Virus record (IMG/VR): IMGVR_UViG_3300031629_000082 | Coordinates: 1-24,029 of that record | DNA length: 24,029 nucleotides | Direction: 5' to 3' (one strand) | From: a virus | Shown here: one piece after another, positions 19,022 through 21,625 of the stretch | How the letters are laid out: every line of letters starts with the position of its first letter | Position numbering within the stretch: position 1 is the stretch's first letter | Made by a program: the position numbers and the translations under genes | Notes under the pieces: generated by a model | The model's database searches: none | What the model was told of the DNA's origin: nothing | Seen by the model: the letters and a program-made list of their open reading frames with translations, nothing else

Positions 19022-19219
19022 CTACCCCCTAGACCTTAACAGATCACCAGCGTTATTATAAATCTTCACCCTTAACCTACCACCAGCGTCTTGCTGATAT
19101 ATTTTAATTGGCAGATCCGACTCCACACAATCTTCATACCACTCTATCGCCTTAGCTAAAGTTTTCACTGGGTGAATTGACTCAGTGCAAGTACCGCCCC
19201 TTGGGTTATCTACTGCCAT
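19022..19219 (-). CDS. Small unknown protein
   Basis: A 65-residue protein, MAVDNPRGGTCTESIHPVKT..., with AAGGAG eight bases before the ATG. It has a helix 'TLAKAIEWYEDCVESDLPI' followed by two probable strands, 'KIYQQDAGGRLRVKIYNNAGDL'. No family recognised. It is the first minus-strand gene left of the 545-base non-coding region, one base ahead of the nuclease gene. Confidence 0.65.
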   Translation of the reverse strand: MAVDNPRGGTCTESIHPVKTLAKAIEWYEDCVESDLPIKIYQQDAGGRLRVKIYNNAGDLLRSRG

Positions 19220-19262
19220 GTTATTGCTCCTTATCGCTAAACGGTTTGAGTGATTGGCTTTC

Positions 19263-19756
19263 TTTAGGTAATACTCCCCTAACCAAGCATAAGCCTAGCT
19301 AGAAGAAATTACCTAAATCCTGATTCGCTATTACGGAATCGGTCATGGAAAATTTAGGGCAGGCCATTAGTAAGAACGCCTGCTAACATGATTACGGTTT
19401 TACTACCGCCCAACACGCTCATGTTCGCTTCTCGATGCGTATACCCCAAGGATAAACCAATATAGGGTCGCGTGAAAAACTACTCATAACGTACTAAAGG
19501 CAAGGCTTATTGGATACCTAGTTTATACAGTAGGAGACTGCTAAAAGCATGACCACCTGTTGCTTGCCTGTTGGCAGCTAGGATCATTAAAGGAGCGAGG
19601 ATAGAGAAGGGTTGCACAGCATTAACACGTTTGATAAACTACACTTGTGTTGGCGCTGGATTTTCCTCTAGTTTCGCTGGCTCGAATGAGGCTCTAACCT
19701 CTTCACCAACACACCCATTCTAGCCCCTTGCTCTATTACGGTCAAGGGGCTTTTTC
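19263..19756 (+). ncRNA. Candidate large structured RNA (about 475-500 nt), opposite to flanking genes
   Basis: No gene is visible in 19220-19765, the longest non-coding stretch in the window. It is packed with perfect inverted repeats: a 10-bp pair (19263-19272 with 19308-19317), GATTC/GAATC (19322-19340), GCAGGC/GCCTGC (19359-19383), AACATGA/TCATGTT (19385-19425) enclosing CGGT/ACCG, ACCC/GGGT (19443-19468) and AGGCAAG/CTTGCCT (19498-19569). A four-way junction follows, closed by an 8-bp stem (19646-19653 with 19706-19713) with three hairpins inside. A plus-strand terminator comes directly after. A weak promoter, TTGAGT-N17-TAATAC (19246-19274), could start it; the 10-bp repeat would then overlap the promoter and may be an operator instead. 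Large ornate phage RNAs such as GOLLD and ROOL are a possible comparison; no homology is claimed. A replication origin is the main alternative. Confidence 0.55.
19722..19756 (+). terminator. Rho-independent terminator, plus strand
   Basis: AGCCCCTTG, a 12-base loop, CAAGGGGCT and then TTTTT: a perfect 9-bp stem with a T-run on the plus strand only. No plus-strand gene precedes it, which is the strongest evidence that the upstream region is transcribed as RNA. Confidence 0.88.
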
Positions 19757-19765
19757 TTGCCTGCG

Positions 19766-20098
19766 TTAAAATGGACGCTGTTCATCTTCATAATGCTTTA
19801 AGATTATTCCGTCTGGGATGGAAGCAGAAAACTCTTCAAGGATCTTCTCACAAGTAAACTCTCGCGCTTCAACTTCATTAGTTGTTTTGAACTCAGTAGT
19901 TCTACGGAATAGCATGTGGATAATATTGTTCTTATCATCATCGCTCATGCTTTCAATAAGGTCATTTAGCTCAAGGTTAATTCCATCAACCATGATGTTG
20001 CCATCGACTTGAAGCTCCCAAAATAGATCATCACGGGTTTCTGCGATTTCACTTTCATAGTCAGGGAGGTCATATACTGTTGGGTTATTTACATTCAT
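19766..20098 (-). CDS. Unknown acidic 110-residue protein, leftward side of the divergent promoter
   Basis: MNVNNPTVYDLPDYESEIAE..., with GGAG eight bases before the ATG. It is very acidic, with 'LELNDLIESMSDDDKNNIIHMLFRRTTEF' as the probable helical centre. No motif recognised. It lies alone between the divergent promoter region and the plus-strand terminator of the structured RNA. As an early, small acidic leftward protein it could be a host-takeover or DNA-mimic type product, but this is only a suggestion from composition. Confidence 0.65.
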   Translation of the reverse strand: MNVNNPTVYDLPDYESEIAETRDDLFWELQVDGNIMVDGINLELNDLIESMSDDDKNNIIHMLFRRTTEFKTTNEVEAREFTCEKILEEFSASIPDGIILKHYEDEQRPF

Positions 20099-21412: not shown

Positions 21413-21625
21413 ATGGAAATTAACATCGGCTCATCGCTGAGAGTAGCCCAAGCAAAAGCCCAAGTAAATAGCTCTGACCTAGCTAGGATATTTAAAGTAC
21501 ACCCGCAGCAGATTATGCGCTGGAGGAACGGACGCGATATGAAAATATCCCTAGCCATTCGCTTCGCTGATCACTTTAACATCACCCTTACTGAGTTCAT
21601 TACATTGGGGGCTGACAATGGCTGA
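21413..21625 (+). CDS. XRE/Cro-type helix-turn-helix regulator
   Basis: A 70-residue protein with a clear helix-turn-helix, NSSDLARIFKVHPQQIMRWRNG (about residues 19-40), followed by the helices usual in Cro/CI-type folds (SLAIRFADHFNITLTEFI). There is no second domain, so it is Cro-sized rather than a full CI repressor. It is encoded in the rightward operon whose promoters carry repeated motifs and is a candidate to bind them. AGGGG is the ribosome binding site at a longish spacing. The stop overlaps the NinB start. Confidence 0.85.
   Translation: MEINIGSSLRVAQAKAQVNSSDLARIFKVHPQQIMRWRNGRDMKISLAIRFADHFNITLTEFITLGADNG

Follow-up and report, generated by a model that had tools for sequence, protein, structure and literature searches.

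To our knowledge, few large ornate RNAs are known in phages, GOLLD and ROOL among them. HEARO, raiA, OLE, HOLDH, DUF3268 and drum are examples of curated intergenic structured RNA motifs of phages and bacteria, of the kind collected in Rfam 15 and found by comparison, and the pRNA of phi29 is a phage-encoded, structured and self-assembling RNA. GOLLD, which occurs in phages and prophages, has a conserved 3' region and a less conserved 5' region, and ROOL is a large ornate phage RNA whose 5' and 3' regions are intertwined and co-evolve (PMC12286853). Assembly into a homo-oligomeric nanocage is a trait of GOLLD and ROOL; the family described below is known from sequence comparison.

The window (the whole stretch of DNA analysed, an IMG/VR fragment of 24,029 bases from an uncultured phage) contains a gap that is very probably the gene for a dedicated, structured plus-strand RNA of about 475 nt, both in its existence and in its anatomy. 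A dedicated RNA of this size, perhaps of another class, had been proposed in the original prediction, and it is the best-supported reading given the covariation, the terminator and the lack of an Rfam match. Searches with cmscan at the gathering score and at E values up to 10 gave nothing credible for the window, GOLLD and ROOL included, or for the type B homologue L012, and searches at the gathering score only gave no match for L101, L117, L020 and L035. The outcome of this covariance search, which had been suggested with GOLLD and ROOL in mind, is consistent with another class.

Like GOLLD, the RNA is a large phage RNA with a conserved 3' and a less conserved 5' part, a trait that we consider analogous and not homologous. 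However, its length of about 475 nt compares with more than 800 nt in many GOLLD members, Rfam returned no match, and the two have no helices or motifs in common as far as tested. GOLLD often lies near tRNA genes, whereas ARAGORN detected no tRNA or tmRNA in the window and no tRNA near the RNA in 14 of 15 loci, the exception being L123 with two tRNAs about 1.4 kb away. The RNA resembles ROOL in being large, ornate and phage-borne, but the ends of ROOL co-evolve, whereas here two domains have been exchanged independently, again with no Rfam match. The other phage and bacterial motifs of Rfam 15 are likewise intergenic and comparison-found, and none of them matched the new family at the gathering score, or credibly at E values up to 10. 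It also differs from phi29 pRNA, since it is much longer and does not lie near the terminase gene, and no relation to pRNA was found. On account of the missing Rfam match, the shorter length and the absence of a tRNA neighbourhood, we filed it, from its sequence, as a new family within a known kind, the large structured phage RNAs.

The gap and its homologues

The ORF-free gap spans 19220-19765 and is flanked by minus-strand ORFs at 19022-19219 and 19766-20098, so the ORF positions bear out the predicted gene-less stretch between minus-strand neighbours. Among the 38 type A and B elements described below, the gap of the window included, no ORF keeps its length or frame. The phage encodes head-tail adaptor, tail, terminase, helicase, primase-like, Erf, SSB, NinB and NinG proteins; its tail protein is nearest to those of Pelagibacter phages (about 40%) and its helicase to those of Pseudomonas, Pseudoalteromonas and Vibrio phages (about 36%). 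A small Cro/C1-type HTH protein is encoded at 21413-21625 within the Erf-SSB-NinB-NinG operon. An identical copy of the element is present in a 37-kb record.

Relatives were fetched from IMG/VR via the flanking proteins, then by blastn with the gap, and then with a pattern of the 3' domain. With blastn, two additional homologues matched over their full length (87-89%), and in about 20 other contigs the match was confined to the last roughly 170 nt; these contigs have in common a different 5' part of roughly 300 nt. After the pattern search, 38 distinct elements were available, comprising three of type A (the element of the window, L033/L114 and L035/L136) and 35 of type B. Motifs of the type B 5' domain led to the distant types C (L099, L101 and L167) and D (L170-L174), and in all, about 47 distinct homologous phage sequences of types A-D were obtained from IMG/VR. 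The helicase of L101 is 47% identical to that of the window, and identity among the terminases of the carriers drops to 32%, which suggests that the RNA was kept or transferred while the remaining genome turned over.

The reference phage and plasmid collections contained no match to the RNA family. Fourteen pattern matches in bacterial genomes, mostly of GC-rich taxa, were attributed to chance, as none was convincing with the 3'-domain covariance model. Viral contigs L162, L165 and L169, which matched a short motif, and L166 were rejected because the rest of the domain was absent. Since the family is absent from Rfam and from the annotated phage collection searched, standard annotation would miss it. 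We found no earlier description in the open literature; subscription papers and the supplementary tables of large screens lay outside that scope, and an unnamed earlier listing is possible.

The features assigned to the locus are as follows; the 5' end of the RNA is estimated to within 10 nt on either side, and its 3' end is the T-run of the terminator.

19262-19275, plus strand: conserved upstream box CTTTAGGTAATACT (TTTAGGCAATAGT-like in types B and D), aligned across types
19281-19755, plus strand: predicted structured noncoding RNA of about 475 nt (homologues, covariation, terminator, no conserved ORF)
19281-19589, plus strand: type A 5' domain of about 300 nt, common only to the window, L033/L114 and L035/L136
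19359-19383, plus strand: predicted hairpin GCAGGC...GCCTGC with compensatory changes in both relatives (RNAalifold, three sequences)
19385-19425, plus strand: predicted stem AACATGA/TCATGTT enclosing a CGGT/ACCG hairpin at 19395-19408 (RNAalifold)
19590-19713, plus strand: conserved core of the 3' domain in types A and B, with a diverged homologue in type D (covariance model, alignment)
19595-19679, plus strand: possible pseudoknot of a purine with a pyrimidine tract, crossing h12
19647-19653 with 19706-19712, plus strand: helix h12, GTGTTGG/CCAACAC (covariation), GAGTCGG/CCGACTC in type D
19684-19704, plus strand: hairpin h13, GAA-T-GAGG ... CCTC-TTC, with compensatory changes at four of seven pairs
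19722-19755, plus strand: intrinsic terminator, 9-bp stem followed by T5, conserved in homologues

Terminator, covariation and helices

The terminator stem AGCCCCTTG/CAAGGGGCT pairs 19722-19730 with 19743-19751 and is followed by T5. A terminator hairpin was found in 38 of 38 type A and B sequences, built from several unrelated stem sequences, and the T5 run on the plus strand in 37 of them. The predicted plus-strand terminator with its 9-bp stem and T-run was therefore borne out by the sequence and by these homologues.

The inverted repeats, on which the original prediction had leaned, fared less well. The 10-bp repeat TTTAGGTAAT/ATTACCTAAA (19263-19272 with 19308-19317) is present, but the repeats do not exceed chance, with a plus-strand fold of z = -1.09 and 16 of 100 shuffles equally or more stable, and several small repeats listed earlier lie outside the supported structure. 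Because the fold is no better than that of shuffles, a list of short repeats alone is no evidence, and the evidence against chance comes wholly from the comparison with relatives. The minus strand of the window folded with z = -3.5, owing to one 25-bp hairpin confined to the three type A sequences. This hairpin is formed by the minus strand of the 19263-19317 repeat just upstream of the ORF at 19022-19219, and may serve as an operator or as a hairpin for leftward regulation.

In the whole unrefined type B alignment, the covariation term of RNAalifold was positive (unfavourable) for both strands, and for this reason a helix-by-helix model of 66 pairs was used for 26 type B sequences. In this model, which was partly chosen on the data on which it was then counted, 92.2% of cells were paired, compensatory changes occurred at 20 of the 66 pairs, and the double-change cells numbered 121, against 45.3 ± 6.6 after shuffling (0 of 500 shuffles reached it) and 10-18 with slid pairing partners. 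Shuffling breaks the relatedness of the sequences and the slid-partner control keeps it; the compensatory changes exceed both, and types C and D, which were found later, keep helices independently. Aligning the same gap in related phages, as had been suggested, thus revealed abundant compensatory changes together with the conserved plus-strand terminator. Outside the terminator and pseudoknot columns, the non-Watson-Crick cells included 27 G-U and 8 A-C, indicating that the plus strand is favoured as the RNA.

For the 3' domain, the covariance model scored 130.9 bits (E 6e-28) on the window, whose own sequence is part of the model. The putative pseudoknot would join the purine tract GCGAGGATAGAGAAGG (about 19595-19610) to the pyrimidine tract ending in TTTTCCTCTAGTTTCGC (about 19661-19678); it can form in every sequence, but swapped partners fit about equally well (permutation P = 0.17). 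Helices h1 and h9 of the 5' domain are modelled as pseudoknotted with their neighbours, with one fully compensatory pair each. A stretch of the type B 5' domain, for example 3241-3258 of L012 (TCAGTCCCATCANTCCTG), is near-invariant across types B, C and D; hardly any of its positions is assigned to a pair, and it is a candidate binding site.

The type A 5' domain could not be aligned with that of types B, C or D, and an exact pattern scan recovered the same three contigs only. Within it, the hairpin at 19359-19383 changes from C-G to U-A and from G-C to A-U, and in L033 the hairpin at 19395-19408 reads CGAC/GTCG in place of CGGT/ACCG, with two pairs altered on both sides. RNAalifold counted 11 compensatory pairs from these three sequences, with an overall covariation term that was not favourable.

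Domain make-up of types C and D

Helices h1, h2, h3, h4, h6 and h7 persist in types C and D, mostly with altered sequence at homologous positions, in strings that were chosen by eye and then checked by script, and hence not blind; type D additionally keeps h5, h12 and h13. Helix h2, for example, is CACTTACC/GGTAAGTG in type B, CGTAATTTG/CAAATCACG (L101) or CGCAGAG/CTCTGCG (L167) in type C, and AATACGCC/GGCGTATT in type D. In our view no other single item of evidence is as strong as these helices, since their pairing has outlasted changes in their sequence.

Type A consists of the A-type 5' domain and the 3' domain, and type B of the B-type 5' domain and the same 3' domain. In type D, a diverged B-type 5' domain is followed by a diverged 3' domain, with the terminator and the TTTAGGCAATAGT box present, and in type C a diverged B-type 5' domain is joined to another 3' part. 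This supports a modular family, in which a 3' domain of roughly 170 nt and a 5' domain in at least two unrelated versions appear to be inherited separately. The RNA of about 475 nt foreseen at the outset was supported, but what is conserved is a pair of units, the 3' domain of 170 nt and a 5' domain that can be exchanged. To the known large phage RNAs the locus contributes a family that covaries clearly, sits at a defined place next to the replication operon and, unusually, shows natural swaps of its domains both ways; these swaps are a built-in experiment on which part of the RNA does what.

The type C RNA lies immediately upstream of the Erf gene, is directed toward it in the same orientation, and has an uncertain terminator there. 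A 220-nt RNA terminating at h7, considered for L101, was dropped since L167 has no T-run at this point and conserved sequence continues. A palindrome, TGTCAA-N6-TTGACA, lies immediately upstream of the RNA in L101 and L099 and looks like a repressor operator. Downstream of the RNA in L101 and L167, about 110 nt separate the conserved complementary blocks CCCGTCA ... TGACGGG; the second block immediately precedes the start codon of Erf, and the pair may be a leader switch.

Genomic position and rival readings

In all four types the RNA is divergent from the adjoining helicase operon and points toward the recombination genes, and in types A and B the next gene after it is convergent. The upstream box, which in type A is the left arm of the 10-bp inverted repeat, is a probable promoter or start element, although a family-wide scan found no recognisable sigma-70 promoter in it. 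Candidates such as TTGAGT-N18-AATACT were rejected because the scan did no better than on shuffles, and so was the idea that the box is a repeated phage promoter, its copies in the window not being above chance. Antisense targeting within the window was also dropped, as the longest complementarity there, 12 nt, equals the chance expectation.

The dedicated RNA has two chief competitors, a structured RNA serving as primer or origin and, in type C, a leader function. The gap might act in cis as a leader or attenuator in the 5' region of a flanking mRNA, either of the leftward minus-strand operon or of the plus-strand Erf operon. The position of the type C RNA directly before Erf, possible transcription of the leftward operon across the gap from 20.1 kb and the stable minus-strand fold all speak for this. 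We nevertheless judge it improbable, because the RNA of types A, B and D stops at a plus-strand terminator, the next gene in A and B is convergent, the G-U over A-C bias favours the plus strand, and the minus-strand hairpin is confined to type A. A replication origin, with the repeats as DNA structure or with a primer RNA, has the same low standing: the minimum of cumulative GC skew falls near 19.5-20 kb, beside the helicase and primase genes, but this turn coincides with the switch in gene strand, and an RNA is what the conserved intrinsic terminator, the compensatory changes and the G-U pairs indicate; a structured primer RNA at an origin would still be compatible.

That the family is instead a highly diverged GOLLD or ROOL seems more improbable still. 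It is large, phage-borne and terminated, and its 3' domain is conserved while its 5' domain varies, as described for GOLLD (PMC12286853), yet neither the window nor type B or C members matched Rfam, the length falls well below that of many GOLLD members, and no tRNA island adjoins. Chance repeats in a non-functional spacer would agree with the unremarkable plus-strand fold of the single sequence, but not with conservation and covariation across about 47 sequences, and a missed small gene would not agree with the lack of a conserved ORF. Unless the alignments are wrong, covariation, terminators and the helices of types C and D already refute both.

If the dedicated RNA is the correct reading, its start would lie just past the upstream box, with the helicase/replication operon running leftward from the other side, and its end, for types A, B and D, at its own intrinsic terminator. 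Judging from its location next to the genes for replication and recombination, it would be made early to middle in infection, from their control region. From termination before any gene (types A, B and D), a fold kept despite divergence of the sequence and of the neighbouring genes, and the swapped domains, we infer that the RNA might act in trans as a structural or scaffold RNA; this is a guess, and one that we think rather unlikely to be right. Such a scaffold would either self-assemble like GOLLD and ROOL or associate with a protein of the phage or the host; the 3' domain would be its common core, and the 5' domain would be adapted to the host or partner. We give slightly less than an even chance to a new class of large phage RNAs with interchangeable domains that self-assemble or scaffold proteins in replication, recombination or host takeover.

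On the far side of the terminator, the relatives of the ORF at 19766-20098 (families F6 and F13) are small genes on the minus strand that run toward the RNA. Among them, a conserved family without a name (about 95-123 aa) ends directly after the terminator in 25 relatives.
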